Positions 87 through 25,800 of a DNA stretch of 44,341 nt are shown piece by piece. Each line of letters begins with the position of its first letter. Position 1 is the stretch's first letter. The stretch lies in contig CACXJE010000027.1 of the NCBI GenBank assembly GCA_902767915.1, forward strand, positions 1-44,341. Reading direction: 5' to 3'. Below the pieces are notes generated by a model. The model searched no databases and had not been told where the DNA came from. It worked only from the letters and a program-made list of their open reading frames with translations. The DNA is from Oscillospiraceae bacterium (GTDB lineage: Bacteria > Bacillota > Clostridia > Oscillospirales > Oscillospiraceae). The translations under genes and the position numbers were made by a program.

Positions 87-782
87 ATGAAGCTGGGCGG
101 TCTGCAGAAAATGACCCTTTTGGACTTTCCCGGCCGGGTGGCCTGCACGGTCTTCACCGTGGGCTGCAATTTTCGCTGCCCCTTCTGTCACAACAGCAGC
201 CTGGTAGTTTCCCCGGAGGTTCCGGAGCTCGGCCAGGATGATTTTTTTGCCTTTCTGCGGAAGCGGCAGGGCCTGCTGGACGGGGTGGCCATCACCGGCG
301 GAGAGCCTCTGCTCCACCCGGATATGCCGGAGCTTTTAGAAAAGATCCGGGCGCTGGGCTACGCGGTCAAGCTGGACACCAACGGCGCCTTTCCGGACCG
401 GCTGCAGAAAATCCTCGAGGCCGGGCTGGCGGACTATGTGGCCATGGACGTCAAGAACAGCAAGGAAAAGTATGAGCTGACCGCCGGCGTGGCCGGGATC
501 CTGCCCAGGGTCGAGCAGAGCATGGCCCTGCTGCGGGAAGGGAAGACCCCCTTTGAGTTCCGCACCACCTTAGTGGACGAGCTCCACGAGCCCGCGGACT
601 TCGCCGCCATCGGCCAATGGATCGCCGGCACGGAGCGGTATTTCATCCAGGGCTTTGTGGATTCCGGCGACATCCTGGCCGGCTGCGACGCCTTCCATGC
701 CGCGTCCCCGGAGAAGGCCGCCGCCTGCCTGGAGGCCGTCCGGGCCTGGGTGCCGAAGGCGCAGCTGAGAGGCGTGGGATGA
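87..782 (+). CDS. nrdG: Anaerobic ribonucleotide reductase activating protein (radical SAM)
   Basis: This radical-SAM enzyme installs the glycyl radical on NrdD, using S-adenosylmethionine and a [4Fe-4S] cluster. The N-terminus carries the CxxxCxxC cluster motif as CNFRCPFC at about residues 28-35, followed by the GGEP motif at about 72-75. The product is 231 residues, matching the longer NrdG/PflA-like clostridial form. The ATG at 87 is chosen because AGGAGGGG lies just upstream and the conserved sequence begins there. The longer frame from 18 would translate the DnaA-box array. nrdG lies upstream of nrdD here, the reverse of the common order. They are separated by a repeat element, so they may not be one simple transcript. 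Confidence 0.93.
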   Translation: MKLGGLQKMTLLDFPGRVACTVFTVGCNFRCPFCHNSSLVVSPEVPELGQDDFFAFLRKRQGLLDGVAITGGEPLLHPDMPELLEKIRALGYAVKLDTNGAFPDRLQKILEAGLADYVAMDVKNSKEKYELTAGVAGILPRVEQSMALLREGKTPFEFRTTLVDELHEPADFAAIGQWIAGTERYFIQGFVDSGDILAGCDAFHAASPEKAAACLEAVRAWVPKAQLRGVG

Positions 783-783
783 A

Positions 784-1009
784 TTGACAGTTGAAAATTG
801 AAAATTGAAAATGAATGTGTTTGGCAAATTGCGATTTGCCAAACGGCAAAATTTTCAGCAAAGTCTGCGCTTTCCCGTTAACTGTCCCCAATATAGTCCA
901 TGTCAATTGATACAATCTGTCTGAGAGTTCGAGTTGATTTCTTTTCTGATTTCTCAAATGGCAATTTGAGAAATACCGACATTTTCAACTTTCAACTTTC
1001 AATTGTCAA
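784..1009. mobile_element. MITE-like 226-bp element with heptad inverted termini
   Basis: The termini are 30-base inverted repeats (784-813 and 980-1009) matching at 27 of 30 positions. Each consists of four tandem seven-base units (TTGAAAA type on the left, TTTCAAC type on the right). Just inside each end lies a perfect 11-bp hairpin, at 819-844 (loop TGCG) and at 949-974 (loop GGCA). The element is therefore symmetric and has no coding capacity. It fills the nrdG-nrdD gap. The non-autonomous mobile label is inferred from structure; no transposase partner is identified. Confidence 0.6.
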
Positions 1010-1042
1010 CTACAATCGAAACAGAGAATAAGGAGAAACATT

Positions 1043-1963
1043 ATGTACCAGGTCGTAAAGAGAAATGACAAGGTCGTTGATTTCGACATTTCCAAGATTT
1101 CCACCGCCATCAAGAAGGCGTTCAACGCCAAGCAGAAGCACTACAACGACGACACCATCGACTTCCTTGCCCTCAAGGTCACCGCCGACTTCCAGAGCAA
1201 GATCAAGGACGACAAGATCGCCGTGGAGGACATTCAGGACTCCGTGGAAGCAGTCCTGGGCCGGGCCGGCTACGAGGACGTGGCGAAGGCCTACATCCTC
1301 TACCGCCGTCAGCGGGAAAAGCTCCGCAACGTCTCCGAGACCATGCTGGACTACAAGTCCGTGGTGGACCAGTACCTGAAGGTCATGGACTGGCGGGTCA
1401 AGGAGAACTCCACCGTCACCTACTCCGTGGGCGGCCTGATCCTCTCCAACTCCGGCGCCATCACCGCCAACTACTGGCTCAGCGAGATCTACGACGACGA
1501 GATCGCCAACGCCCACCGGAACTGCGACTTCCACATCCACGATATGTCCATGCTCACCGGCTACTGCGCCGGCTGGAGCCTGAAGCAGCTGATCCAGGAG
1601 GGTCTCGGCGGCGTCCTTCGACACCTACCTGGCTCCCTTCGTCAAGGCGGACAACCTGCCCTACGACCAGGTCAAGAAGTGCGTGGAGTCCTTCATCTAC
1701 GGCGTCAACACCCCCTCCCGCTGGGGCACCCAGGCGCCCTTCTCCAACGTGACCCTGGACTGGACCGTTCCCAACGACCTGGCCGAGCTGCCCGCCATCG
1801 TGGGCGGCAAGGAGATGCCCTTCAAGTACAAGGACTGCAAGAAGGAAATGGACATGGTGAACCGGGCCTTCATCGAGGTCATGATCGAGGGCGACGCCAA
1901 CGGCCGCGGCTTCCAGTACCCCATCCCCACCTACTCCATCACCAAGGACTTCGACTGGTCTGA
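1043..1963 (+). pseudogene. nrdD: Anaerobic ribonucleoside-triphosphate reductase, N-terminal part (frame broken near 1613)
   Basis: Residues 1-95 form an ATP-cone, the allosteric activity-control domain of class III reductase. The start of the catalytic barrel follows, including HIHDMSMLTGYCAGWSL near residues 164-180, where the Cys belongs to a conserved active-site position. Genuine homology stops after GLGGV at about base 1615, and the remaining frame to 1963 is out-of-frame translation. About 35-40 expected residues (the stretch usually beginning PGKI and ending AQAFS) are absent, and the reading frame resumes two positions off. ATG 1043 follows AAGGAGAAAC. An anaerobe needs this enzyme, so a sequence or assembly error is as likely as a true lesion. 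Confidence 0.88.
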
Positions 1964-3416
1964 AACCGAGAACAACAAGCTCCTGTTCGAGATGACCTCC
2001 AAGTACGGCACCCCCTACTTCTCCAACTACGTGAACTCCGACATGGAGCCCTCCGACATTCGTTCCATGTGTTGCCGTCTGCGTCTGGACCTGCGGGAGC
2101 TGCGGAAGAAGTCCGGCGGCTTCTTCGGCTCCGGCGAATCCACCGGTTCCGTGGGCGTGGTCACCATCAACCTGCCCCGGATCGCCTACCAGGCCAAGGA
2201 CGAGGCCGACTTCTACCAGCGGCTGGATAAGCTGATGGACATCGCCGCCCGGTCTCTGAAGATCAAGCGGGACGTCATCACCAAGCTTCTCGAGGGCGGC
2301 CTGTATCCCTACACCAAGCGCTATCTGGGCACCTTTGCCAACCACTTCTCCACCATCGGCCTCATCGGCATGAACGAGATGGGTCTGAACGCCAAGTGGA
2401 TCCGCAAGGACATGACCCACACCGAGACCCAGGAGTTCTCCAAGCAGGTCCTGAACCACATGCGGGAGCGCCTGTCCGACTATCAGGAGATGTACGGCGA
2501 CCTCTACAACCTGGAGGCCACCCCTGCCGAGTCCACCACCTACCGCTTCGCCAAGCACGACAAGGCGGACTTCCCCAACATCATCACCGCCAACATGAAC
2601 GGCACCCCCTACTATACCAACTCCTCCCACCTGCCCGTGGGCTACACCGAGGACGTGTTCTCCGCCCTGGACATCCAGGACGAGCTGCAGACCCTCTACA
2701 CCTCCGGCACCGTCTTCCACGCCTTCCTGGGCGAGAAGCTGCCCGACTGGAAGGCCGCGGCCAACCTGGTCCGGAAGATCGCAGAGAACTACAAGCTGCC
2801 CTACTACACCCTGTCTCCCACCTACTCCGTCTGCCCGGATCACGGCTATCTGGCCGGCGAGCAGTACACCTGCCCCCACTGCGGCAAGAAGACCGAGGTC
2901 TACAGCCGTATCACCGGCTATTACCGCCCGGTGCAGAACTGGAACGACGGCAAGGCCCAGGAGTTCAAGGACCGGAAGGTCTATGACGTGAACACCTCTG
3001 TGTTCCGCCGCTTCCATGAGCCCCTGAGCGCCGCTGCGGCTCCCGCCGCTGCCCCCTCCGCCGTGGAGCTGGAGACGAAACCCGCCGCCGCCCCCGCAGG
3101 GGCCGGCGTCCCCGACGGCCCGCAGATCGCCGCCCCCGTAGGGGCCGATGCCCACATCGGCCCTGCCGCTGAGCAGGCTTCCGGCCTCCTCCTCTTCACC
3201 ACCTCCACCTGTCCCAAGTGCGTGATGGCCAAGAAATTCCTGGCCGACGCCGGCATCGCCTATGATACCGTGGTGGTAGATAAGGAGCCCGCCCTGGCCA
3301 AGCAGTACGGCGTCCGCCAGGCCCCGACCCTGCTGGTGCTGGAAGCGGGCAAGGAAGTGGACCGTGTGGAGAACCCCTCCAACATCCGCCGCTTCTGCGA
3401 GGAGCACAGCAAGTAA
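1683..3416 (+). pseudogene. nrdD: Anaerobic ribonucleoside-triphosphate reductase, C-terminal part with fused redoxin domain
   Basis: This is the continuation of the broken nrdD. In-frame homology begins at about 1611 (ASFDTYLAPF), upstream of the first ATG at 1683. It carries the active-site region SMCCRLRLDL, a zinc site (CPDHG and CPHCG) and the glycyl-radical loop RITGYYRPVQNWN. NrdD normally ends soon after this loop. Here a linker rich in Ala and Pro follows, then an approximately 75-residue glutaredoxin/NrdH-like domain with the CPKC redox motif (TSTCPKCVMAKKFL) and a cis-Pro motif APTL. Some NrdD classes take electrons from thioredoxin or NrdH, so the fused domain probably recycles the active-site disulfide. 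Part of the linker is encoded by copies of a dispersed repeat. Confidence 0.9.
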
Positions 3417-3447
3417 GAAACGAAATACAGCAAGTAAGAAACGAAAT
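3406..3447 (+). repeat. Tandem 21-bp duplication over the nrdD stop codon
   Basis: Bases 3406-3426 and 3427-3447 are identical 21-mers, read as ACAGCAAGTAAGAAACGAAA plus T. The first copy contains the nrdD stop codon and the second follows it directly. The 21-base length is three seven-base steps, in keeping with the period-seven arrays elsewhere in the window. Confidence 0.8.
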
Positions 3448-3449
3448 AC

Positions 3450-3492
3450 AAACAACACGAGGCGCCCGCCAGGGCGCCTCGTGTTGTTTGCG
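3450..3492 (+). terminator. Terminator after nrdD
   Basis: A perfect 17-bp stem (3450-3466 with 3473-3489) has a six-base loop and a GC-rich core GAGGCGCC. It ends in a short T-rich tail. It lies 34 bases past the nrdD stop and is the obvious intrinsic terminator. Confidence 0.85.
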
Positions 3493-3511
3493 GCAAATCA
3501 AGCGGTATCCC

Positions 3512-3760
3512 ACCCGTAGGGGCCGGCGTCCCCGACGGCCCGCGCTCCTCACCCGTAGGGGCCGGCGTCCCCGACGGCCCGCGATACCCCACCCGTAGGG
3601 GCCGGCGTCCCCGACGGCCCGCGTTTCCCACCCGCCGTATCATGCGTAGGGCGGCCTGACCCCAGGCCGCCGCACCCCATATCCGATCACACCGTCCGCC
3701 GTAGGGAGCGATTATGTCCGCGGAGCGGGACAATCGCTCTGATCGCCCGCAGGGCGATAA
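3512..3760. repeat. Cluster of GTAGGG-led hairpin repeats
   Basis: Three near-identical units start GTAGGGGCCGGCGTCCCCGA at 3516, 3555 and 3595. Two diverged members start at 3646 (stem GCGGCCTG) and 3701 (stem AGCGATT). Each has a constant GTAGGG head followed by its own self-complementary stem. A further hairpin, ATCGCC/GGGCGAT, ends the cluster. Bases 3417-3901 hold no gene that I can support, only the nrdD terminator and these repeats. Confidence 0.75.
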
Positions 3761-3870
3761 GGGCTCCCCGGAAGGTTTCCCCGCCCTAAGGGCCCCTGAA
3801 CCAAAAACCCAAACCCCAAAACCACAACAACCCGTCAGATTCCCAAACCAATCATACTCTTCACTAACAA

Positions 3871-3908
3871 CGAATGACGGAGGCACATGCTTGTGCCTCC
3901 GTCATTCG
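3871..3908 (-). terminator. Hairpin at the 3' end of the small XRE gene
   Basis: A perfect 16-bp stem (3871-3886 with 3893-3908) has a six-base loop and overlaps the last codons of the minus-strand XRE gene. No strong T-tract follows on that strand, so termination is inferred from the stem and position. Confidence 0.6.
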
Positions 3909-4099
3909 CGTTCTATTTCCACAATATCATTCGGTGTGCAGTCCAAAATCCGGCACAGCCGACTGAGCGTAATCATCGTGATGTTTCGTCCCTTTTTCAG
4001 GGAATCCAACGTCCGGTTGTCAATGCCACCCTTGAGCAGCTGATACTGGGTCACGCCCTTCTCTGCCATCGTCTTCCACAGCGGCCCATAGTTGAACAT
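3902..4099 (-). CDS. Small XRE-family DNA-binding protein
   Basis: This 65-residue protein is essentially one Cro/C1-type helix-turn-helix. The five helices cover about residues 5-60, and the recognition part includes NRTLDSLKKGRNI. Such minimal XRE proteins are common clostridial regulators, but the target is unknown. It is a clear paralogue of the 68-residue protein at 38171-38377: both share PLWxTMxxKG, TLDSLKxxRNI and a C-terminal CxPxDV segment. A purine-rich ribosome site precedes ATG 4099. It lies downstream of a second XRE gene on the same strand and may be cotranscribed with it. Confidence 0.85.
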   Translation of the reverse strand: MFNYGPLWKTMAEKGVTQYQLLKGGIDNRTLDSLKKGRNITMITLSRLCRILDCTPNDIVEIERE

Positions 4100-4140
4100 T
4101 GAAATTACCCCCCGTTGCTGAAGCTATCATTCATTTATTT

Positions 4141-4446
4141 CTATGAGTTGAAAACGTCAATCATTTTCTGTACTGCAGATTTTTGATCAGGAGTCAAGGA
4201 GATCCAGCCATCGAATAGATTTTTTAACTCCGGTGTCAGCTCTACCATGTCCGTTTCGGAAAAGAACTGAGAAAGCGTAATCCCAAAGGCTTTACAGATG
4301 ATTTCCAGTGTGTCAATTGACGGCGTAGTGTTCCGTCGGTAGATGTTCCCAATTGTGGATTGCGACAGACCGCATTCCTTGGAAAGACGGTATTCCGACC
4401 AGCCGCGATCCTTTAATAATTTCTGCAGGCGTTCCAGTGTGTTCAT
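4141..4446 (-). CDS. XRE-family transcriptional regulator
   Basis: The protein has 101 residues. An N-terminal Cro/C1 helix-turn-helix spans about residues 5-62 (YRLSKECGLSQSTIGNIYRR, then PSIDTLEIICKAFGITLSQFF). A short helical tail (residues 70-101) probably dimerises or binds a ligand. It is transcribed divergently from the small gene at 4570, and the shared gap contains a perfect inverted repeat over a -10 box, so autoregulation and control of the neighbour are likely. GGAAAGG precedes ATG 4446 at a normal distance. Target genes beyond this region cannot be told from sequence. Confidence 0.9.
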   Translation of the reverse strand: MNTLERLQKLLKDRGWSEYRLSKECGLSQSTIGNIYRRNTTPSIDTLEIICKAFGITLSQFFSETDMVELTPELKNLFDGWISLTPDQKSAVQKMIDVFNS

Positions 4447-4518
4447 CCCATCACAACCTTTCCTGCAACTATTTTATATGCAAGTTGAAAATCATTATAC
4501 ATCCCACTTGTAATGCAG

Positions 4519-4543
4519 ATACATCTATGTTAAGATGTATAAT
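4519..4543 (+). promoter_or_regulatory. Operator-like inverted repeat over a -10 box
   Basis: ATACATCT (4519-4526) and AGATGTAT (4533-4540) form a perfect 8-bp inverted repeat with a six-base gap. It overlaps the -10 hexamer TATAAT at 4538-4543 for the gene at 4570. No good -35 is seen, as expected for a regulated promoter. On the minus strand another TATAAT lies at 4499-4494 and could serve the XRE gene. The XRE regulator at 4141-4446 is the natural candidate to bind here. Confidence 0.45.
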
Positions 4544-4569
4544 AGGTTTAAATACGGAGGGAGAGCGGC

Positions 4570-4803
4570 ATGGATAGGAAAAAAGAACTCTTGATCAAAA
4601 GCGGTGCGCGGCTCTACAGTCTTGGCATCGATCTGGAAGGAGCCCGAGCGCATATACGCAAATTGCTTGAAAATGGCGCAGGCTATGACGCCCCGGAAAT
4701 GATTCGGGCGGTGAAGGATTATACCGAACTAAAAAAGCAGTGGGACAATCTCGAAGCAGAACATTTGAAAACAAGAAGTGAAATACTGACCGGAAAGGAT
4801 TGA
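4570..4803 (+). CDS. Small hypothetical protein
   Basis: This 77-residue, highly charged, probably all-helical protein is not recognised. It starts MDRKKELLIKSG and ends in a Lys/Glu-rich helix, without membrane segment or Cys motif. CGGAGGGAG precedes ATG 4570. It is read divergently from the XRE regulator and is the first gene before the serine recombinase. The gene at 38481 has the same arrangement (a small helical protein divergent from an XRE gene), though sequence similarity between the two is not obvious. Confidence 0.65.
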   Translation: MDRKKELLIKSGARLYSLGIDLEGARAHIRKLLENGAGYDAPEMIRAVKDYTELKKQWDNLEAEHLKTRSEILTGKD

Positions 4804-4900
4804 TGTTAGGCAGCGGAAAGAACGCAAAACGTCTTTGATACTGGCAGCAAACCGGCTTACAATTTATCCACCGAAACTGATGGATTGGAGGCTGGTAAAA

Positions 4901-5488
4901 ATGATTTACGGCTATGTACGCGTTTCCACAAAGGAGCAGAACGAGGACCGGCAGCTTGTGGCCATGCGGGAGTTCGGGGTGGATCGGATCTACACCGACA
5001 AGCAGTCCGGCAAGGACTTCGAGCGGCCGCAGTATCAGAAGCTGCTCCGAAAACTGAAAAAGGCCGATACCCTTGTCGTCAAGAGCATCGACCGCCTGGG
5101 GCGCAACTATGAGGAAATCCTGGAGCAATGGCGCGTCATCACAAAGGAGAAGGGCGCGGCAATTGTGGTTTTGGATATGCCGCTGCTGGACACGAGGCAG
5201 AACCGGGATCTGACCGGCACGCTGATCGCGGACATCGTCTTGCAGCTGCTGTCCTACGTGGCGCAGACGGAGCGGGAATTCATCCGCCAGCGGCAGAAGG
5301 AGTGCATCGCCGCAGCCAAGGCCAGAGGCGTCAAATTCGGACGGGAGCCCAAAACCCCGCCGCCGGAATTTTACTCCCTGCTGGCCCGATGGCAATCCGG
5401 CGCCCTATCTGCCCGCACCGCGGCAAAACAGCTCCACGTGAGTCATAACACGTTTATAAAATGGACGCATTTGTTGAATCATGGATAA
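4901..5488 (+). CDS. Serine recombinase (resolvase/invertase family)
   Basis: This is a site-specific recombinase of the small serine type, 195 residues. The catalytic domain begins MIYGYVRVSTKEQ with the nucleophile Ser in RVST, followed by the conserved DRLGRNY segment near residues 65-71 and a long helix E region (QTEREFIRQRQKE). The C-terminal 45 residues form a helix-turn-helix (SARTAAKQLHVSHNTFIKW) that binds the crossover site. ATG 4901 is chosen because the family sequence begins there and GGAG lies upstream. An earlier in-frame start at 4835 adds unrelated residues. It may have moved the island or may invert a nearby segment; no crossover repeats are identified. Confidence 0.92.
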   Translation: MIYGYVRVSTKEQNEDRQLVAMREFGVDRIYTDKQSGKDFERPQYQKLLRKLKKADTLVVKSIDRLGRNYEEILEQWRVITKEKGAAIVVLDMPLLDTRQNRDLTGTLIADIVLQLLSYVAQTEREFIRQRQKECIAAAKARGVKFGREPKTPPPEFYSLLARWQSGALSARTAAKQLHVSHNTFIKWTHLLNHG

Positions 5489-5545: not shown

Positions 5546-5646
5546 ATATTCGTCATTGTTCGGTTAAAAATACAGGAAACAACCACTGACATACAAACTC
5601 TGCTTTTCTGGCCGACAACGAGTATTCAATGGAACGGAGGCGGATT

Positions 5647-6936
5647 ATGGCAGCCATAGCAGAAGTATTGAAATACGAGGGTGATAACAGCACCTTCATT
5701 TGGAAGCATCCCAGCGAGGATTTCAACAGTTTGACCCAACTGATCGTCCACGAATCCCAGGAGGCCGTTTTCTTTATGAACGGCCAGGCGCTGGACCTGT
5801 TCGGGCCGGGCCGCTACACCCTGGAAACGCAGAACATCCCGAAGATCGGCAAGGTCCTGAACCGGTCGACGGACGGAGTCACGCCCTTCCACTGCGAGGT
5901 CTATTTCATCAATCAGACCGTCCAGATGGGCTTGAAATGGGGCACGGATTCGAAGGTCCGTTACATTGACCCGGATTTCGGAATCCCCATCGAGCTTGGC
6001 GCCTCGGGAGAGATGAGCCTGCGCGTGTCCGACAGCCGCAGGCTGCTGATCAATCTGGTGGGCACCATGCGGGGGATCGCCTGGGAGGAGCGCGGCGCCG
6101 GGTTCACCAAGTCTCTGCAAAATTCGTTCCGGCCGCTGATCTCCACGGCGGTGAAGTCGAACCTCTCCCCGGCGATCAAGGCCGGTCAGTTCGATATCCT
6201 GGAGATCGACGAGCACCTGGAGGAACTATCCGCCGTACTGCGGGAACGGATCCTGGGCGGCTTTGAGGAATACGGCCTGACCATCCCCCAGTTTTATCTG
6301 ACCACCGTGGTCTTGCCGGAGGGCGATCCCAGCTTCAAGCGTCTGCGGGAGCTCCATACCATCTCCCTGCAAACCCGCATGATCCGGGCGGAGGCCACGG
6401 TCCGCACAGCCCGCGCCCAGGCGGAGGCGGAGGTCACCGCCGCGGAGCGGGTCACCGAGCTGGAACGGCAGACCACGAAAACGGAGGTTGCCCGGCGCGA
6501 GGCGGAACGCAGAATCATCGAGGCCCAGGCCGAAGCGGAGGCTACCCGGCAGGCGGGCTATGCCGAGGCGCAGGTCATGCAGGCCCAGGGCATCACGAAG
6601 AAGGACTACGTGGCCGCCGAGGTGCAGAAGGCCTACGCCGAGGGCATGGGCAATATGAGCGGCAGCGGCGGCTCCGCCATGGGCGACGTGATCGGGCTGG
6701 GCGTCGGGCTGAAGGCGGCGGGCGTCATGGCCGGTCAATTCGGCGGCCTGTTCGATGCGGCGGGCGTCCAGCCTGCGCAGCCCCCGGCAGCCCAGCCGGC
6801 AGCGGCACAGCCTGTGGATGAAATGGCGGCGTTCAAGGCGAAGGTCGAAAAGCTGTCCGTTATGAAGGAGGCCGGACTCATCGGCGAAGAGGAGTTTGCC
6901 CAGATGAAGGCGAAGCTCCTTGCGGATATTCTGTAA
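5647..6936 (+). CDS. SPFH (band 7) domain protein with C-terminal SHOCT domain
   Basis: This 429-residue protein resembles the YdjI-type SPFH family, membrane-associated scaffolds that assemble in microdomains. Residues about 15-240 form the SPFH core (FNSLTQLIVHESQEAVFF near the start). Residues 240-300 are a long charged coiled coil rich in Ala, Glu and Arg. A Gly-rich, then Ala/Pro/Gln-rich linker follows. The last 35 residues are a SHOCT motif (KLSVMKEAGLIGEEEFAQMK), usually an oligomerisation tag. ATG 5647 follows GGAGG; the ATG at 5629 lies upstream of that site. It heads an operon with a membrane protein and a TIR receptor-like protein, suggesting that it organises them at the membrane. 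Confidence 0.88.
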   Translation: MAAIAEVLKYEGDNSTFIWKHPSEDFNSLTQLIVHESQEAVFFMNGQALDLFGPGRYTLETQNIPKIGKVLNRSTDGVTPFHCEVYFINQTVQMGLKWGTDSKVRYIDPDFGIPIELGASGEMSLRVSDSRRLLINLVGTMRGIAWEERGAGFTKSLQNSFRPLISTAVKSNLSPAIKAGQFDILEIDEHLEELSAVLRERILGGFEEYGLTIPQFYLTTVVLPEGDPSFKRLRELHTISLQTRMIRAEATVRTARAQAEAEVTAAERVTELERQTTKTEVARREAERRIIEAQAEAEATRQAGYAEAQVMQAQGITKKDYVAAEVQKAYAEGMGNMSGSGGSAMGDVIGLGVGLKAAGVMAGQFGGLFDAAGVQPAQPPAAQPAAAQPVDEMAAFKAKVEKLSVMKEAGLIGEEEFAQMKAKLLADIL

Positions 6937-6952
6937 AGCGGAGGATAGACAG

Positions 6953-7669
6953 ATGAAACAGAGATTTCAGAGATACGCCGTGATCTGGGCGGTGCTACTG
7001 GGGGCCTTCCTGGCCGTGGTGTTCCTGGCGCGGCCGCTGATCCCGGGCCTCCGGATCGCCTATGACGGACGGTTCTGGATCGCGCTGGTCTGCGTTCTGA
7101 TCGCCTTCCTCGGCAACCTGGTCTGCGCCCGGCTGGCGCTCCGGGAGGAGAACAACCAAAGGCTGTTCTACAAGCTGCCCCTGCTCACGGTGAGCCGATC
7201 CGCGCTGATCGCAACCATTGTGCTCGGCGCCGCGCTGATGCTGATCCCCGACTGTCCTGCCTGGATCGCGGCCATCGTCTGCGTCCTGCTCCTTGCCTTC
7301 CAGGTCATTGCCCTGATCAAGGCGTCCTGGGCTGCGGACGAGGTCGCCCGGATCGACGAGAAGGTCAAGACGCAAACGTCGTTTATCCGGACGCTAACCG
7401 TAGAGGCGGAGAGCCTGGTTGCCCGGGCCAGTAGCGAGGCCGTGCGGAAGGAGTGCCAAAAGGTCTATGAGGCGGTGCGGTATTCCGATCCGATGTCCAA
7501 CGAGGCGCTGGCCGGGATTGAGGCGAAGATTACCGCGAAAATGGTTGAGATGACTAATGTGATTGGCACTGATGATGTAATGAAAGCAAAAGAGCTTGCG
7601 GCTGAGTTAGTAGTTCTTGTCGGGGATAGAAACAGAAGTTGTAAAGGGTTGAAATACAATGGCAAATGA
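6953..7669 (+). CDS. Conserved membrane protein of the SPFH operon
   Basis: This 238-residue protein has no named function that I can support. Four hydrophobic segments lie at about residues 8-30, 40-60, 80-97 and 101-121. They are followed by a cytoplasmic helical tail (DEKVKTQTSFIRTL, then VRKECQKVYEAVRYSDPMS). GCGGAGGAT precedes ATG 6953, 16 bases after the SPFH stop, so the two are cotranscribed. The last approximately 40 codons are visibly AT-rich compared with the rest, as if the 3' end came from different DNA. The stop overlaps the start of the next gene by 11 bases. Confidence 0.8.
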   Translation: MKQRFQRYAVIWAVLLGAFLAVVFLARPLIPGLRIAYDGRFWIALVCVLIAFLGNLVCARLALREENNQRLFYKLPLLTVSRSALIATIVLGAALMLIPDCPAWIAAIVCVLLLAFQVIALIKASWAADEVARIDEKVKTQTSFIRTLTVEAESLVARASSEAVRKECQKVYEAVRYSDPMSNEALAGIEAKITAKMVEMTNVIGTDDVMKAKELAAELVVLVGDRNRSCKGLKYNGK

Positions 7670-8267
7670 TGTTGATATATACAAAGAGAGTAACTATTGC
7701 TCAATTCTTCTGCAGTGTAAATTGGACAATGATTTAGTAGAAATATGTGATTTTTTCCAATATAGAACAGCAAATGAGCATGACTGCCCCCTTTCTTTCA
7801 AAATAGATAGCATTTTTACTGACGCTCAAAAAGACGAACTGTATAATATGCTTCTTGACGCAGCCGATATCTATAAAGAAGATTTTCTGTTCAATTCATT
7901 GCTTCGAAACAGAATAAAAGATATTAGGATGCTAGAGTTGAGCGATTCAACCTTGAAGTGCGACAGAATAAAGGGTTTTTTTCACCAAAACAATCCTTCT
8001 AAAAATGGAAGATCGCAGCATCAAATCGATTCTGTTTTCAAGCACATACGTAATGCATTTGCGCATGGCAGGATATGTTTTAACAATGAGTACATCATAA
8101 TGGAAGACAAACAGAATGAACTTACTGCGAGGCTAATTATTTCTTTATCCGCATTACGCAAATGGAAGCAAACCATTGAAGAATATGTAAAGGAAAGGAA
8201 TAGTAAGTATGGCACGAGTCAGAGAGATGCAAGGAACACCGGCGCAGATTGTAACTCTGAAATCTGA
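7659..8267 (+). CDS. Hypothetical protein with HEPN-type RxxxxH motif
   Basis: The protein has 202 residues, helical, and is encoded by AT-rich DNA unlike the flanking GC-rich genes. Residues 129-139 read HIRNAFAHGRI, where R131-x4-H136 matches the Rx4-6H signature of HEPN domains. Many HEPN proteins are RNases in toxin-antitoxin and abortive-infection systems. The family call rests on this motif and the helical context only. No nucleotidyltransferase (MNT) partner is adjacent. The start overlaps the previous stop by 11 bases, and its own 3' end overlaps the next gene by 59 bases, so the genes are translationally linked. Confidence 0.6.
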   Translation: MANDVDIYKESNYCSILLQCKLDNDLVEICDFFQYRTANEHDCPLSFKIDSIFTDAQKDELYNMLLDAADIYKEDFLFNSLLRNRIKDIRMLELSDSTLKCDRIKGFFHQNNPSKNGRSQHQIDSVFKHIRNAFAHGRICFNNEYIIMEDKQNELTARLIISLSALRKWKQTIEEYVKERNSKYGTSQRDARNTGADCNSEI

Positions 8268-8628: not shown

Positions 8629-11289
8629 ATGTCCATCTTCAAATGTAAAATGTGCGGCGGCACGATTGAGTTTGAGCCGGGGGCTTCTGTCGGCGTGTGC
8701 GAATACTGCGGCTCCAAACAGACCCTGCCGCGGCTGGACGACGACCGGCGGGCGAATCTGTACGACCGCGCCAACCATTTCCGCCGCAATAACGAATTCG
8801 ACAAGGCCGCGGGGATCTACGAGCAGATCCTGAACGAGGATACCTCCGACGCCGAGGCCTACTGGTCCCTGGTGCTCTGCCGCTACGGCATCGAGTACGT
8901 GGAGGACCCGGCCACCCATAAGCGCGTGCCCACGGTGAACCGGGCGCAGTTCACCTCGATCTTCGACGACGACAACTACAAGTCCGCCCTCCAATACGCC
9001 GACGGTTTCCAGCGGAGCATCTATCAGGAGGAGGCCGCGGCAATCAACGAAATCCAAAAGGGCATCCTGGCCATCTCCCAGAAGGAGGAGCCCTTCGACG
9101 TCTTCATCTGCTACAAGGAGACCGACAACAGCGGCCGCAGGACGAGAGATTCGGTGCTCGCCAACGACCTGTACCACCAGCTTACGCAGGAGGGCTTCAT
9201 GGTCTTCTTCTCCCGGATCACGCTGGAGGACAAGCTGGGCACGGCCTACGAGCCTTATATCTTTGCCGCCCTGAACTCCGCCAAGGTCATGGTGGTCCTG
9301 GGAACGAAGCCGGAGTATTTCAACGCGGTATGGGTCAAGAACGAGTGGAGCCGCTATCTGGCGCTGGTGAAGCAGAGCGGAGGCAAAAAGGTCCTGATCC
9401 CGGCCTATCGGGACATGGACCCCTACGATCTGCCGGAGGAGTTCTCCCATCTGCAGGCCCAGGATATGTCCAAGCTGGGCTTCATGCAGGACCTGATCCG
9501 GGGCGTCAAGAAGATTGTCCGGGCGGACGAGGCAAAGCCGGCGGTCAGGGAAACGGTGGTCGTGAACGCACCCGCAAACGCCAACACCGCGCCTCTGCTC
9601 AAGCGCGCGTTCATGTTCCTGGAGGATGGCGAGTGGGCAAAAGCAGATGATTTCTGTGAACAGGTGCTAAACCTTGACCCGGAGAATGCGCAGGCTTATC
9701 TGGGCAAGCTGATGGCGGAGCTGCACGTCCGCAGGCAGGAGGATCTGCCGAACTGCGAGCGGCCCTTCGACCGGAGCAGCAGCTGCCAAAAGGCCCTGCG
9801 CTTCGGCGATGAAAAGCTGGCCGGGACCCTGCGAGGCTATATCACCCATATCAAAGAACGCAACGAAAACGATCGGCTGACCGGAATCTATACCCGTGCT
9901 ACGGAAGCCATGAACGCGGCGAACAGCGAAGCAGCGTATCAGTATGCGGCTTCGACGTTCAAATCGATCTCCGGCTTCAAGGACGCCGATGCGCGTGCAG
10001 CGCAGTGCCTTGCGCAAGCGGAGGTCTGCAGCAAAGACGCCGTCTACGCTTTCGCAAGGTCGCAGATGACAGGTAACGTTGTCAGCAAATATGAGGCGGC
10101 GATCAGTAACTTCCGCACGATCTCCGGCTGGAAGGATGCAGACGAGCAGATTGACATTTGCCGGAGAAAGATCGAGGAGATCAAGGCAAAGGAGGAGGCC
10201 GACCGTCTCGAGCGTGAACGTCAGGAGGAACAAAGACGCGTTGCCGCCGAAAAAGCCGCAAAAAAACGCAAAAAGATTGCGGCCATCGTAATACCCATCG
10301 TCGTTGCGTGTATCGCGTTTGTCATTGTGCTGACGAAGGTGATCATTCCAAACAGCAAGTATAATAAAGCGGTGAAGCTGTACGAGGCCGGCAAATACGA
10401 GGAAGCGATCACGGCCTTTGAAGCGCTGGACGGGTATAAGGACAGTGCGGAAAAGCTGAGCGAAAGCAAGTATAACAAAGCGGTGAAGCTGTACGAGGCC
10501 GGAAAGTACGAGGAAGCAATCGCTGCCTTTGAAGCGCTGGACGGCTATAAGGACAGCAAGGAGCAAATCGAGCGCTGTGAAACGGCGATTCTGAATTTGC
10601 GGTATGACGATGCGGTGAAGCTGTACGAGGCCAGGAAGTACGAGGAAGCATTTGCAGCGTTTGAAGCACTAGACGGATATAAGGACAGCGCGGAAAAGCT
10701 GAGCGAAATCCGACACTCCTCAGAATGGATGAAGCTGAGCCCTGTCGGGGAATCTGTTTTCTTCGGAAACTATGAACAGGACAACAACACCTCCAACGGA
10801 AAAGAAGAGATCGAATGGGTTGTGTTGGCAAAAGAAAGCAGCCGAATCCTTGTTATCAGCAAATACGCGCTGGACAGCAAGCCGTACAACACAACCGGGA
10901 CAGACGTCACCTGGGAGACCTGCTCTCTTCGGAAATGGCTGAATAACGAGTTCCTGAACACGGCGTTCACAGCGGAGGAGCGGAAGCGGATCCCGACGGT
11001 GACGGTCTCGGCAGACAAGAACCCGAGCTACAGAACTAATCCTGGCAACTCTACGCAGGATAAGGTTTTCCTGCTGAGCATTCCGGAAGCCAACAAATAC
11101 TTCAAATCGGACGAAGCGAGAAAATATGCGCGGGCCACCTGCTGGTGGTGGCTGCGGTCCCCCGGCTTCAGTTCCGACCGCGCTGCTTTCGTCGAATCCA
11201 ACGGCTCCGTCAGCGTCAGCATCGGCAACGGTGTCGGCCTCGACTACGGCGCCGTTCGCCCCGCTTTGTGGATCAATCAGGAACCTTAA
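8629..11289 (+). CDS. Zinc ribbon-TIR-TPR-transmembrane-DUF6273 receptor-like protein
   Basis: The protein has 886 residues. Domains in order: zinc ribbon (C6, C9, C24, C27); TPR-like helices (44-90); TIR domain (about 155-300, starting PFDVFICYKETD); TPR-like helices (322-520) with two GFKDAD/GWKDAD units; a Glu/Lys/Arg coiled coil; one transmembrane helix (about 549-571) preceded by KKRKK; three near-identical TPR-like repeats (576-692); and a DUF6273/formylglycine-enzyme-like fold (about 706-886) ending WWLRSPG...VRPALWI. In the TIR, W235-V-K-N-E239 aligns with SARM1 WVHKE, so E239 is the expected NADase Glu. The positive-inside rule puts the TIR in the cytosol and the C-terminal fold outside. 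AGGAG precedes the ATG. The role is inferred to be sensing or immunity. Confidence 0.88.
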   Translation: MSIFKCKMCGGTIEFEPGASVGVCEYCGSKQTLPRLDDDRRANLYDRANHFRRNNEFDKAAGIYEQILNEDTSDAEAYWSLVLCRYGIEYVEDPATHKRVPTVNRAQFTSIFDDDNYKSALQYADGFQRSIYQEEAAAINEIQKGILAISQKEEPFDVFICYKETDNSGRRTRDSVLANDLYHQLTQEGFMVFFSRITLEDKLGTAYEPYIFAALNSAKVMVVLGTKPEYFNAVWVKNEWSRYLALVKQSGGKKVLIPAYRDMDPYDLPEEFSHLQAQDMSKLGFMQDLIRGVKKIVRADEAKPAVRETVVVNAPANANTAPLLKRAFMFLEDGEWAKADDFCEQVLNLDPENAQAYLGKLMAELHVRRQEDLPNCERPFDRSSSCQKALRFGDEKLAGTLRGYITHIKERNENDRLTGIYTRATEAMNAANSEAAYQYAASTFKSISGFKDADARAAQCLAQAEVCSKDAVYAFARSQMTGNVVSKYEAAISNFRTISGWKDADEQIDICRRKIEEIKAKEEADRLERERQEEQRRVAAEKAAKKRKKIAAIVIPIVVACIAFVIVLTKVIIPNSKYNKAVKLYEAGKYEEAITAFEALDGYKDSAEKLSESKYNKAVKLYEAGKYEEAIAAFEALDGYKDSKEQIERCETAILNLRYDDAVKLYEARKYEEAFAAFEALDGYKDSAEKLSEIRHSSEWMKLSPVGESVFFGNYEQDNNTSNGKEEIEWVVLAKESSRILVISKYALDSKPYNTTGTDVTWETCSLRKWLNNEFLNTAFTAEERKRIPTVTVSADKNPSYRTNPGNSTQDKVFLLSIPEANKYFKSDEARKYARATCWWWLRSPGFSSDRAAFVESNGSVSVSIGNGVGLDYGAVRPALWINQEP
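10354..10710 (+). repeat. Tandem 111-bp coding repeats in the TIR gene
   Basis: Two nearly identical units start at 10354 and 10465 (each SKYNKAVKLYEAGKYEEA in protein). A third, slightly diverged unit starts near 10600. The DNA identity is high enough to suggest recent duplication and possible copy-number change. They encode TPR-like helical pairs just outside the membrane. Confidence 0.85.
11161..11289 (+). other. Candidate variable region of a diversity-generating retroelement target
   Basis: This 3' end encodes the ligand face of the lectin-like fold after WWLRSP. Invariant positions (AA, V, G, V, G, V, G, VRPAL) alternate with 20 freely varying ones. Seventeen of those 20 codons end in C (for example TTC, TCC, GAC, CGC, ATC, CTC, TAC), as expected from adenine mutagenesis of AAC template codons. 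A GC-rich stretch GGCGCCGTTCGCCCC ends the region, and a small hairpin (TGCGCC/GGCGCA, 11314-11328) follows the stop. The gene generally favours C-ending codons, which weakens the argument. No template repeat or reverse transcriptase is in the window. Confidence 0.45.
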
Positions 11290-11434
11290 TTCTTCAACTC
11301 TGAAATCATCCACTGCGCCGCAGGCGCAAATCCCAGCGGGAGAAGAACGGTGGCACTCCGAATAAATAATCCAAAGATTATAATCGGAGCTCAGTATGAG
11401 ACGATTTCTCCGAAAATCAGCGAACAAAACCCGG

Positions 11435-22290: not shown

Positions 22291-22857
22291 TCAGTCCTTG
22301 ACGTAGAACTGGAAGCCGAAGGCATCCTCGTTCACCCGATCGTCACTGGTGCAGTAGCCGGACAGCTTGATCGTGCCGTTCTTGTCATAGAACTCCAGCC
22401 AGACCTTGCCGTAGTTCCCGGTGAAGGTCTTGTGGTAGATGTAGAAGAGGCTGCTGTCCTCATTGGCGGACTGGAGTCTCCACTCCTTGACGGCGTTGGC
22501 GTAGCCAATCTTGTTCGTGAGCTCGTAATAGGTCTTATCACCGACGACAGAGACCCAGCAGGTGATGGCGTTCTCGGTGCCCTGGGTGAAGTAGTAGGCG
22601 CCGTCCTCGTCCACGTGGACCGTCCATACCAGATTCTCCTCGGGGTTGACGATGTGATTTTCCTCCGGGGTGATCTGGGTGCCCAGCAGGTACCAGTCGT
22701 TGTCGGTCTCGTTCCGGATGGCCAGCTGGTTGCCCGGGTTGTAGATCACGACCTCGTCGCCGTCCTGAATCTGGGAAGCCAGGGTGAAGGTGCCCTCGAC
22801 GGGGAGCAGCTTCAAGCCGGCAATGGCGGAGCGCAGGGCGGCGGCAGCCGCATCCAC
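22291..22857 (-). pseudogene. C-terminal repeat domain of the giant S-layer protein, split off by a frameshift
   Basis: This frame encodes a domain of about 160 residues (DGDEVVIYNPGNQLAIRNET, NDWYLLGTQITPEE, YGKVWLEFYDKNGTIKLSGY). It repeats the domain encoded at about 23400-23880 of the large gene. The reading frame continues upstream of the first ATG to about 22900 as a helical linker (AKAVLANDSATQAEVDAAA), exactly where the large gene drops out of frame. The two are therefore one gene with a one- or two-base indel near 22895-22905, or a sequencing error there. As drawn, this part has no ribosome site of its own. Confidence 0.8.
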
Positions 22858-22858
22858 C

Positions 22859-25800
22859 TCAGCCTGGGTGGCGCTGTCGTTGGCCAGGACCGCCTTGGCC
22901 TGCGATCACGCTCTGGAGACCGACCTTGATCACGTCGTTTCCGGTGGTGTGGAGCCCCAGCACATAGAGCTGGAACAGGAAGAAGTTGTTGTTCTTCAGG
23001 GTTCCGGTGGTAAAGCCGCTGCTGTACTGCAGGGCCTTGCCGGAGGCGTTGGTGCTGAGCAGGTTGATCTTGCCGACCTCAGCGTCCCTCACGTCCAGAT
23101 ACCAGAGACTGTAGTCATTGGGCTCGGCCTCGTGGGTCAGGGTGCCGCCGGAGGCGGTGGTGGTCAGGTAGGTGCCGTCGTTCAGCATCAGGTAGAAGTT
23201 GGTGTTGTCACCCTCGGGGTAAACCACGGTGTAGATGGCGGTCTTGCCGTTCTGATCCGGGGTCAGCACATCCTCGTTCACCGTGACGCTCACACCGGAG
23301 AGCTTGGTGCCGGTGGCCTCGGTGCTGATGGCTCTCTTATTGGTGGGGTTGTAGATGGCCACCTTGTCGTAGTCCTTCAGCTCTGTGGACAGGTTGTAGG
23401 TGGGTTCGGCCTTCACATAGAACTGGAAGCCGAAGGCGGCCTCGTTCAGCTTGTCATAGCTGGCGCTGTAGCCGGACAGCTTGATCACATCGCCCTTCGG
23501 GAAGAACTCCAGCCAGACCTTGCCGTAGGAGCCGGTGAGGGCGGAGTTGTAGATGTAGAAGAACTTGGAGTCAGCGTTGGCCAGCTCCAGCCCCCAGGTC
23601 TTGCTCCCGTTGGGGTAGTCGGCCTTGTTGGTCAGCTCGAAGTAGGAGCCGGAGACCCAGCAGTTGATGGCGTTGCTTTCGCCCTGGGTGAAGGTGTAGC
23701 TGCCGCTTTCATCCACGTGGACGGTCCACACCAGATCCGCGGCCGGGTTGGTCAGGAGGCCGTTCTCCGGCGTGACCTGGGTACCCAGCAGATACCAGTC
23801 GCCGTCAGACTCGTTCTTGATGGCCAGCTTGTTGCCGGGGTTGTAGATCACGACCTGGTCGCCCTCCTTCAGGTTGGAGGTCAGCACGAAGGCGTCCTGA
23901 AGGCCGGCAGCGGGCGCTGCCTTGGAGGACAGGGTGATCCGGGCGGAACCGCCGTCCCAGGCGTTGTACATGCCCTCGTCCAGACGCTGCCGGAAGAGAT
24001 CGGAGTTGAAGTAGTTGATCAGAACCTCGTTGTCCAGCATGCCGCCGTCCCGGATGATCTTGCAGCCGGCGAACATATTCAGACCGTCGCCGCCCTGCTT
24101 GAGCATGTAGTTGTGAGAGGCCAGGGTGTAGGTCTTTTCGGGGTTGATGGGCTCATACTTGCCGGTGGCCTTGTTCAGCACCTGCACGCTGCCCACACGG
24201 CGGGCACCGGTGACCCCGGCGTACATGCCGGCGGAGTCGGTGGTGACGGTGGAGGCGGTGCCGGTGTAGATGGTGTACTTCAGGCCGGAGACCTGGAGGA
24301 AGCCGCCGCACTCATTTTCGGGCAGGCCCTGCGCATTGAGCGTGGTGCTGCGGGAGGACATCTCCAGCGCGTCCAGGATCTGCTGGCCGGTGACCTCCAT
24401 CACGCAGAGCTCGTTGCCGAAGGGATGGACGTCGATAATCTGTCCGAAAGTCACGTTGCCGGCAGGGATGGATTTCCGGATGCCGCCGCCGTTGACAAAG
24501 CCGATGTCGGCGCCGGAGGCATAGACGTAGGCGTCGGCGCAGACGTCACCCAGGTTGGTCTCCTGGTAACGGACCGCGCGGACGGGCTTGCCGGTATCGT
24601 CCAGCCGGTCGGGGTTGCTGTCGGTCAGAGCCACGGGCAGGCCTTCCACCACAACCTGGTTCAGCAGCTCTGCAAATTCACCGTTGATCTCGTCGATCAG
24701 GCTCTTGGTATCCGGATCCACGTTGGAGAAGCTGTCCCGGGAGACCAGCTCGGTTTTCAGGGAGCCGTCGCGGCCGATGGTCAGCTTGCCCACGTTGGCC
24801 AGCTTGGTGCCGGTGGAGGTCAGCAGGACCTCCTTGCCGTCCATGTTGAACACCCGCTCGCAGGGAATCACGGAGTGGGAGTGGCCGTCCAGCACCACGT
24901 CGATGCCGTAGGTGTTGAGGATCACGTCGGTGGAGCGCCAGGGAGAGGAGCTGGCGTCGGTGCCCAGGTGGGAAAGGGCGATGACGTAGTCTGCGCCCTC
25001 GGCTCTTGCCGCGTCAACCGCGTTCTGCACAGCCTGGTAGAGGGCGAAGCCGTCCTCGTCGTTGCAGAAGTCGTAGATCCAGTTGCCGTTTTCATCCTGG
25101 AAGTAAGTGGGGGTGGACTTGACCAGGGACTCGGGAGTGGTGATGCCCACATAGGCCACCTTCACTTCGCCGTAATCCTTGATCACGTAGGCAGGAAGAT
25201 CCACCGCGTCGGCGGCGCCTGCAGGCCCGATGTAGTTCCAGTTGCAGGTGACGAAGTCGAAGTCCGCAGTCTTCGTCAGCTCGAGGATGTTGTCTACGCC
25301 GTAGTCGAACTCATGGTTGCCCAGGGTAACGACCTCATAACCCGCCTTGCTCATGATGGGGATGATCTTGGCGCCCTTGGTCAGAGAGCCGATGGGGCCG
25401 CCCTGGATGAAGTCGCCGGCGTCCACCAGGCCCACGTAATCGTGCTTGGTTTCCATGTCCTTCTTAAAGGCTGCCAGACCGGCGTAGCCGAAGGAATCGT
25501 TCGCGTTGTCGATGGCGCAGTGGACGTCGTTGGTGTAGAGAATGACGATGTCGTTCTTGTTATCCGCGTCCATCTGATCGAAGCGCATCAGAATGACCGC
25601 CACCTGGGCGCGGGTGGTGTTGCCCTTGGGCTTGAGATAGGTAACGCCGTTGGAGGCGGTGCCGCTGATCAGGCCGGAGGCCACAGCCCACTGCATGGCG
25701 GAGGTGGCCCAGCTGCTCATATCCTTCAGATCCGGGAAGACGGAGAGATCTGCCTTGGCGGAAACGTCGAAGCCCTGAAGCTGGGCGAATTTGTACAGGA

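Follow-up and report, generated by a model that had tools for sequence, protein, structure and literature searches.

The locus described here raises the question of whether a bacterium can build a surface receptor on the plan of an animal Toll-like receptor (TLR), and from where the outer part of such a receptor would draw its variability. It lies in a 44,341-nt stretch of an Oscillospiraceae bacterium (contig CACXJE010000027.1, assembly GCA_902767915.1), referred to here as the window, which belongs to a 2.2-Mb metagenome-assembled genome (MAG) that is 78% complete. A sequence-only reading had proposed a protein at 8629–11289 with a TIR domain, a membrane helix, TPR-like repeats and a DUF6273 domain. 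That protein proved real, with an intact open reading frame (ORF) and Pfam matches, and its domain order is zinc ribbon, TPR, TIR, TPR, the pentapeptide KKRKK, one membrane helix, TPR-like repeats and DUF6273 (Table 1). Two features had been missed at that stage, the N-terminal zinc ribbon and the likeness of the final ~40 residues to a variable repeat. The protein probably acts as a single-pass membrane receptor within a modular system for bacterial signalling or defence, a reading to which we give a probability of about 0.6.

The first 310 residues served as the query in a scan for relatives among genome contigs, each species being represented by one genome; at least 557 were found encoded among at least 594 candidate stretches. 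The analysis was based on 79 loci, namely the best 78 among the genome relatives (72 to 89% identity) and one from viral contigs, chosen by similarity of this core. From 105 ORFs with any core match, 88 were kept after removal of those that were shorter than 450 residues, open at the 3' end or scored below 300 bits. The zinc ribbon cysteines C6, C9, C24 and C27 were unchanged in 60/60 aligned sequences, window included, and Pfam TPR matches were located near residues 48 to 75, 323 to 352 and 579 to 637. An AlphaFold2 model of the ectodomain, built from an alignment of relatives, reached a predicted local distance difference test score (pLDDT) of 92.7. Its top fold match was entry 9qa6, the T. 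ramosa IgA peptidase (2e-8), with the others mainly TPR-type proteins; the N-terminal domain of that peptidase is described as DUF6273 in the available text of PMC12402451. The earlier assignment of the C-terminal part to DUF6273 was borne out by the Pfam profile, and the C-type-lectin fold attributed to it here is taken from print, where the accessible part of PMC10743442 likens DUF6273 to a C-type lectin domain.

For the membrane topology, the only stretch over the hydropathy threshold was residues 550 to 568 (mean 3.3 across 19 residues). It lies within the helix assigned to residues 550 to 571 and directly behind KKRKK (residues 545 to 549), which closes a charged stretch, in agreement with the single helix read earlier. 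Exactly one helix was predicted beyond residue 300 in 66 of the 88 related ORFs, and 63 of these 66 had more Lys/Arg in the 15 residues before the helix than in the 15 after it (means, 6.5 versus 1.8). Beyond the helix, some relatives carry surface-type domains, including Listeria-type Flg_new, BspA-type leucine-rich repeats and Lectin_C. Together, the charge bias and these domains argue that the C-terminus is outside. The placement of the TIR domain in the cytosol and of the DUF6273 end outside, which had been proposed beforehand and corresponds to the layout of a Toll-like receptor, is therefore supported by prediction. Receptors stopping right after the membrane helix, without an ectodomain, were also seen (L103, 9959–11671; L059, 4532–6172; L131, 12301–13944). 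A protein in L046 (G092:C103; the same as L008) showed, by eye and by match, a zinc ribbon, TPR-like parts, a helix and a DUF6273-like end without TIR.

The first clue to the origin of the tail variation was a short ORF in locus L061 reading WWLRSPGNNQNNAANVNNDGSVNYNGNNVNNDNDAVRPA, which was noticed among the DUF6273 tails for its resemblance to the template of a diversity-generating retroelement (DGR). Behind the receptor gene of L061 lie, in this order, an Avd-like gene, the template and a reverse transcriptase (RT) gene. The template and the variable repeat, 117 bases with 34 adenines, differed at 21 positions, all 21 at template adenines, for which the chance would be 1e-14 if the differences were random. 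In the genome of locus L086 (G219), an RT 72% identical to that of L061 was found on another contig, and a template begins on that contig 161 bases in from its start. Between this template and the variable repeat of L086, 17 of 125 positions differed, and template adenines accounted for 16 of these. Since an Avd match was located near the end of the L086 contig and the template near the start of the RT contig, assembly has probably divided a single cassette locus in two. Judged by these adenine-directed differences, two relatives, L061 and L086/G219, have a DUF6273 tail that is targeted by a DGR, and the word "variable" that had been applied to the binding fold was well chosen. In L060, the end of an RT lies right behind the receptor gene, apparently fused to the start of an Avd (by eye), and in L092 Avd and RT fragments lie 1.4 to 2.2 kb behind it. 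Each looks like a cassette that has decayed.

A trace of the same process was apparent in the codons of the wider family. The comparison began with the 31 tails, from 24 loci, that ended in a match to a WLRSPG...RPA-type expression; removal of L061 left 30. In the 14 columns aligned to template Asn codons (AAY), the mean amino-acid entropy was 3.2 bits and the base entropies of the first, second and third codon positions were 1.83, 1.64 and 1.17, with the third base least variable in 13 of the 14. The 124 upstream columns of DUF6273 gave 0.89, 0.77 and 1.50, and the 44 most variable of them 1.32, 1.36 and 1.65, with the third base least variable in 5 columns in each case. When the four DGR-linked loci were removed, leaving 25 rows, the third base was still least variable in 13/14. 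The same held within loci, where in 8/8 same-locus pairs (six loci) the third base differed least in these columns (0 to 7 of 13 to 14) and most upstream. The clearest pair was that of the two L060 receptors, in which 10, 10 and 0 of 14 codons differed at the three positions, compared with 30, 29 and 64 of 118 upstream. This constancy of the third base is opposite both to the pattern in the upstream part of the same domain and to that produced by ordinary selection.

In the window's own tail, 13 of the 14 codons aligned to the L061 template AAY codons were NNY (binomial, 0.0016 against a gene-wide NNY fraction of 0.52). Several observations weigh against the DGR part of the main reading. It differed from its eight nearest relatives at 3 to 9 of the 14 third bases, so that its own signature consists of the NNY bias only; such differences are as separate templates would give and by themselves lend no support. 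Within the window's MAG, no RVT_1 match and no second copy of the variable segment was found, the latter with a guessed degenerate template pattern allowing up to three mismatches. The RT and template searches behind the loci, which covered 50 of the 79 loci (48 genomes, picked mainly for DUF6273 tails), detected the template pattern in only 2/48 genomes and matches to the L061 RT in 12/48, with only G203 and G219 reaching at least 70% identity. Live cassettes beside TIR receptors were therefore uncommon among the genomes examined. In addition, the 44-kb window held no Avd or RT trace and the MAG no second DUF6273 protein. A DGR in the window's own genome is thus not supported, and because the MAG is 78% complete, the absence of RT and template from it is not final. 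The tail probably descends from a diversified lineage and is now a fixed allele, the DGR hardware being absent or unassembled. The general scarcity of cassettes would mean either that they were often lost, leaving fixed alleles, or that they were lost in assembly.

In 400 genomes of the family, the template pattern with at most one mismatch occurred in five and a backward control pattern in three, so that single one-mismatch matches mean little. RT and Avd adjoined the match in two of the five genomes (G412, twice, and G176) and not in the other three. An exact-match search of 394 genomes of the order gave no template. The three DUF6273 proteins targeted in G412 and G176 had no TIR match; two were lipoprotein-like and one was a zinc ribbon protein. 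The corresponding Avd-template-RT cassettes, with TIR-less DUF6273 targets, are found at L163 (4311–6398, G412), L164 and L165; one of the targets is the zinc ribbon protein of ~690 residues, and the zinc ribbon-DUF6273 protein of L163 had no obvious membrane helix by eye. A DGR-type cruciform behind the variable repeat was also considered. Both the window and L061 carry 6-bp hairpins with a GCA loop, but blastn found the palindrome elsewhere in the genome as well, and most relatives had no hairpin meeting the script's criteria behind the receptor; the hairpin was therefore given no DGR role. Past the stop codon, 42 to 61 bases (window 11291–11349) were 77 to 85% identical to DNA directly behind the receptor genes of L058, L064 and L071, and the same DNA resembled stretches near receptor genes in L060 and L082.

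The ectodomain varies not only in sequence but also in kind. When the tails (all beyond residue 400) of 68 of the 88 ORFs, window included, were assigned by Pfam, 42 contained DUF6273, 7 RCC1, 5 BspA-type leucine-rich repeats and 4 Flg_new, with some overlap. L066:7328–11089 consists of TIR, helix, Flg_new repeats and leucine-rich repeats, and L127 of TIR, helix and leucine-rich repeats (LRR_5 in both), while the L129 tail ends in a Lectin_C match right at the cut-off. Same-locus paralogues were compared in all multi-receptor loci except the last one. The core and ectodomain were 89% versus 24% identical in one L066 pair (7328/11231) and 91% versus 46% in an L062 pair (14712/9998), and two helix-less paralogues in L063 shared 94% in the core and 23% in the tail. 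Core and tail evolve independently of each other. Against this, L066, L071 and L089 also have pairs with ~60% in core and tail alike, the L110 paralogues are similar in both parts (core, 97 to 98%; ectodomain, 67 to 75%), and same-locus cores range from 47 to 98% identical; the uniform core is also partly a selection effect, because loci were picked by core similarity. The more distant cores in L043 to L045 were 24 to 72% identical.

The titles of the relatives in the listed loci were mostly Clostridia, Clostridiales, Lachnospiraceae, Oscillospiraceae and Ruminococcaceae, many of them ruminant derived. Among 200 sampled genomes of the window's family, 44 (own included) matched some part of the protein, and the full N-terminal core was found only in the own genome, G185, G001 and G062, with a core fragment at a contig end in G060. 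The distribution is patchy. The absence of the core from two genomes of the same genus in this sample (G096 and G164) weighs against the main reading, as does the lack of any match in phage or plasmid records. The single IMG/VR relative among 95 candidate stretches, L132, is an 18-kb contig that is perhaps host DNA; a mobile element or phage as the carrier is unsupported.

The N-terminal 310 residues were modelled with AlphaFold2 from an alignment of relatives (pLDDT, 85.5), and the best PDB folds were the TIR domains of SARM1, RUN1 and MyD88 (five matches, E up to 0.001). By profile and by modelled fold, the window protein belongs to the TIR superfamily. The motif W-V-x-N-E was present in 102 of 103 related ORFs, window included: the script scored 93, 9 of the 10 printed misses differed before the Trp, and the only true miss was an ORF without the TIR region. 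The earlier placement of W235 and E239 was correct, and E239, the Glu of the W-x-x-x-E motif of TIR NAD+-cleaving enzymes (NADases), lined up with the catalytic Glu residues of 7uxr (in WTEYE) and TcpB (in WPARE). Compared by sequence, the TIR profile found its best PDB match in a TLR15/TLR2 TIR (8e-7), with the same W/E spacing. SARM1 and RUN1 are NADases, and the TIR domains of Toll-like receptors are signalling scaffolds that signal by assembly. Because the TLR TIR has the same spacing, the motif alone is no proof of NADase activity; the TIR core may cleave NAD+ or make an NAD+-derived signal. Two kinds of evidence weigh against the main reading. Similarity to the Thoeris TIR proteins, which are soluble, was weak, with ThsB as the best PADLOC match at only 0.0021 and the type III ThcB4 of NCBIfam at 6e-7, far under the cut-off. 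In addition, the TIR Glu was lost in two L045 paralogues and in a protein of the own MAG, L003. The latter (1507–3042, contig C16, 511 residues) is a degenerate TIR relative that keeps YKETD and FSRITL and has no WVxNE, its TIR part being followed by repeats that are RCC1-like by eye. In L045 (2374–10243, G062), three paralogues lie in tandem; the TIR motif is complete in one, whereas the other two lack the W-x-x-x-E Glu and one of these has an RCC1-like end (by eye). The Glu-less forms are possibly decoys or adaptors.

Table 1. Features of the receptor operon in the window and of the DGR cassette in locus L061
Stretch	Feature	Positions	Strand	Basis or remark
Window	SPFH/Band 7 protein, SHOCT at C-terminus; opens the operon	5629..6936	+	Pfam Band_7_1 2.2e-36, SHOCT 2.8e-6
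Window	Membrane protein, ~4 transmembrane (TM) segments, C-terminal helical tail	6920..7669	+	Hydropathy, overlapping peaks read by eye; likely ATG 6953
Window	HEPN-like protein, variable slot	7659..8267	+	Pfam pEK499_p136 HEPN 6e-4, under curated cut-off
Window	Small ORF, 65 residues	8413..8610	+	DUF4258 only 0.007, under cut-off
Window	TIR membrane receptor gene	8629..11289	+	Intact ORF, ATG start, 886 residues
Window	Zinc ribbon C6 C9 C24 C27	8629..8730	+	Named from cysteine pattern; no Pfam match
Window	TIR domain	9091..9519	+	Pfam TIR_2 (PF13676), residues 158-282, E 1.9e-12, over curated cut-off
Window	W235 codon	9331-9333	+	Inside TIR domain
Window	E239 codon	9343-9345	+	Inside TIR domain
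Window	KKRKK stop-transfer signal and single membrane helix	10261..10341	+	Residues 545-571
Window	TPR-like helical repeats, predicted extracellular	10354..10728	+	Pfam TPR; ectodomain model
Window	DUF6273 domain	10843..11277	+	Pfam, residues 739-883, E 6e-29
Window	Variable-repeat-like segment	11146..11265	+	Residues 840-879; codon pattern vs L061 template
Window	6-bp hairpin, GCA loop	11314..11328		Starts 25 bases past stop codon
L061	Receptor gene	334-2823		TIR, one helix, DUF6273
L061	Variable repeat	2683-2799		End of receptor gene
L061	Avd-like gene	2958-3347		bAvd PF22296 9e-9, NCBIfam DivGenRetAVD 1.3e-13; both under curated cut-offs
L061	Template repeat	3390-3506		
L061	Reverse transcriptase	3667-4761		RVT_1 PF00078 5e-20

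Two of the genes in front of the receptor recur in the family. A homologue of the SPFH protein was found in 51 of the 79 loci, one of the ~4-TM protein (which had no family over cut-off in Pfam or NCBIfam) in 50, and both in 47. In the 35 loci with at least 4 kb on either side, SPFH was present in 29 and both partners in 25. SPFH genes also adjoin the receptor genes in G185, G001, G062 and G060 (by eye). The position between the 4-TM gene and the first receptor is a variable slot, occupied in the window by the HEPN-like gene, whose product has an RNAFAH motif (by eye) and a weak homologue in the same slot of L089. Of 25 slot ORFs of at least 60 residues listed over 45 operons, 10 were scanned, and 5 were over the Pfam cut-off: HEPN RiboL-PSP in L055 (with a homologue in L071), DUF2971 in L064 and L068, DUF4365 in L070 and TIR in L082, the last a soluble protein with strong PDC-S66 and ThsB matches. 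The slot ORF of L132 had a HEPN match under the cut-off. Mainly because some slot genes are of such conflict types, we lean towards defence. Several counts weigh against this interpretation: SPFH was not found in 6/35 of the well-flanked loci, the slot was empty (gap of less than 200 bases) in 24/45 operons, and 5 of the 10 scanned slot ORFs had no Pfam match over the cut-off. The other 21 operons included 20 with at least one ORF of at least 60 residues, not every one a convincing gene, and some slot genes, such as that for a dehydrogenase-like protein in L109, were unlike defence by eye. The pairing of a ThsB match over the cut-off with ThsA that marks Thoeris was not seen, no ThsA-type effector or domain being detected among the five operon proteins scanned.

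Farther upstream, a resolvase gene (4835–5488; Pfam Resolvase, 1.9e-32) directly precedes the SPFH gene, a possible hint that the operon is mobile. An anaerobic ribonucleotide reductase-like gene (by eye) occupies two overlapping frames, 1043–1963 and 1683–3416, as if split by a frameshift or sequence error. Elsewhere in the window, open frames of ~2,700 codons each lie on opposite strands of the same stretch (22784–30895, plus; 22859–30910, minus), one of which is presumably a very large gene.

If the receptor works as its parts suggest, the ectodomain would bind a phage tail, a rival cell or an envelope part outside, and binding would cluster the receptors in an SPFH-organised membrane patch. 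On clustering, the cytosolic TIR domains would assemble and might cleave NAD+ at the W235/E239 site or make an NAD+-derived signal, which would act through the slot effector, the 4-TM protein or both, while DGR hypermutation would provide new binding specificities. The fullest form of this proposal is put forward tentatively: Clostridia of the gut and rumen might own a TLR-like system in which a conserved cytosolic core carries either a hypermutable lectin ectodomain or one swapped for leucine-rich repeats, RCC1 or surface repeats. Together with a platform of flotillin type and death effectors that can be exchanged, it would serve as a diversifying surface repertoire against phages or rivals.

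The same membrane receptor could instead serve outside defence, as a surface recognition or envelope sensor (of self or kin, host glycan, mucin or attachment) whose scaffold TIR controls the SPFH and 4-TM partners without NAD+ cleavage. This we regard as unlikely, yet it fits the assembly-type TLR TIR as the best PDB sequence match, partner genes that are membrane organising and not toxic, and the three TIR-less DGR targets of the same bacterial family, two of them lipoprotein-like. It is countered by the HEPN, ThsB-like TIR, DUF4365 and DUF2971 genes of the slot, by the retention of W235/E239 in all but one of the related ORFs, and by the NADases SARM1 and RUN1 among the best folds.

That the protein is no transmembrane receptor at all, with its hydrophobic segment serving as a buried helix or a cytosolic anchor and DUF6273 lying inside the cell, is quite improbable. 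In its favor, 11 of the 88 ORFs keep the core without a predicted helix, some with DUF6273 tails, so that soluble forms exist, a point against the membrane receptor as a general form (the remaining ORFs had more than one peak, often overlapping). The seemingly helix-less DGR-linked protein of L163 points the same way, as do the cyanobacterial DGR targets, some with TIR, most of which are predicted to be cytosolic in the part of PMC7517822 available. The strength of the hydropathy peak with KKRKK in front of it, the positive-inside bias and the Flg_new, BspA leucine-rich-repeat and Lectin_C matches past the helix speak against it. Ordinary diversifying selection on the DUF6273 tail, with a merely superficial likeness to a variable repeat, would suit the missing RT and template in the window's MAG and the rarity of the template elsewhere, but the complete L061 cassette with its adenine-only differences, the second genome with 16/17 and the reversed third-base pattern make it most improbable and have already largely refuted it for the family.

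The membrane receptor of a signalling or defence system combines features of several known kinds. In the accessible text of PMC7517822 and PMC10907252, the domains joined to DGR-diversified C-type lectin domains in cyanobacteria include TIR-like ones, and in Thiohalocapsa the CHAT-TIR target of DGR 2 is predicted to be cytoplasmic, with membrane segments or a periplasmic lectin domain predicted for the targets of DGR 3 and DGR 9 (PMC10907252). Those proteins, proposed as antigen sensors, share with the present receptor a DGR-diversified sensor of C-type-lectin type and an attached TIR. As far as these texts go, the receptor differs in that the membrane is predicted to separate its TIR from its lectin-like domain, in the several types of ectodomain found on one kind of core, in its SPFH/4-TM neighbours and in its home in Clostridia (PMC7517822, PMC10907252). 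DUF6273 is likewise reported, in the available parts of PMC11792537 and PMC10743442, as a DGR target in Faecalibacterium prophages and in the gut phages nd4 and nd12. The Pfam domain is the same, and so, in the Faecalibacterium cases, is the position of the variable region at its C-terminus; whereas the phage targets are proposed to be receptor binding, here the diversified domain is part of a TIR protein on bacterial contigs (PMC11792537, PMC10743442). With animal Toll-like receptors, as outlined in the accessible text of PMC7075850, the receptor has in common an ectodomain, one helix and a cytosolic TIR (predicted here), and L066 and L127 have leucine-rich repeats past the helix. Unlike them, it has its TIR on the N-terminal side, a zinc ribbon, TPR, bacterial neighbours and a DGR connection (PMC7075850), and in the window DUF6273 takes the place of the leucine-rich-repeat ectodomain. 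The likeness is likely a convergent assembly.

No publication on a membrane TIR receptor of such a kind or on an SPFH-TIR operon was found in a literature search of partial coverage, and the receptor is therefore taken as a new combination of known kinds. To our knowledge, TIR proteins that act in bacterial defence detect infection from within the cell. If the present reading of this large family is true, bacteria would have assembled immune-type receptors for their surface from a constant and a variable part, and some may own surface receptors that diversify. Both the ligand of a DGR-diversified cellular receptor and the response that it sets off become directly testable.

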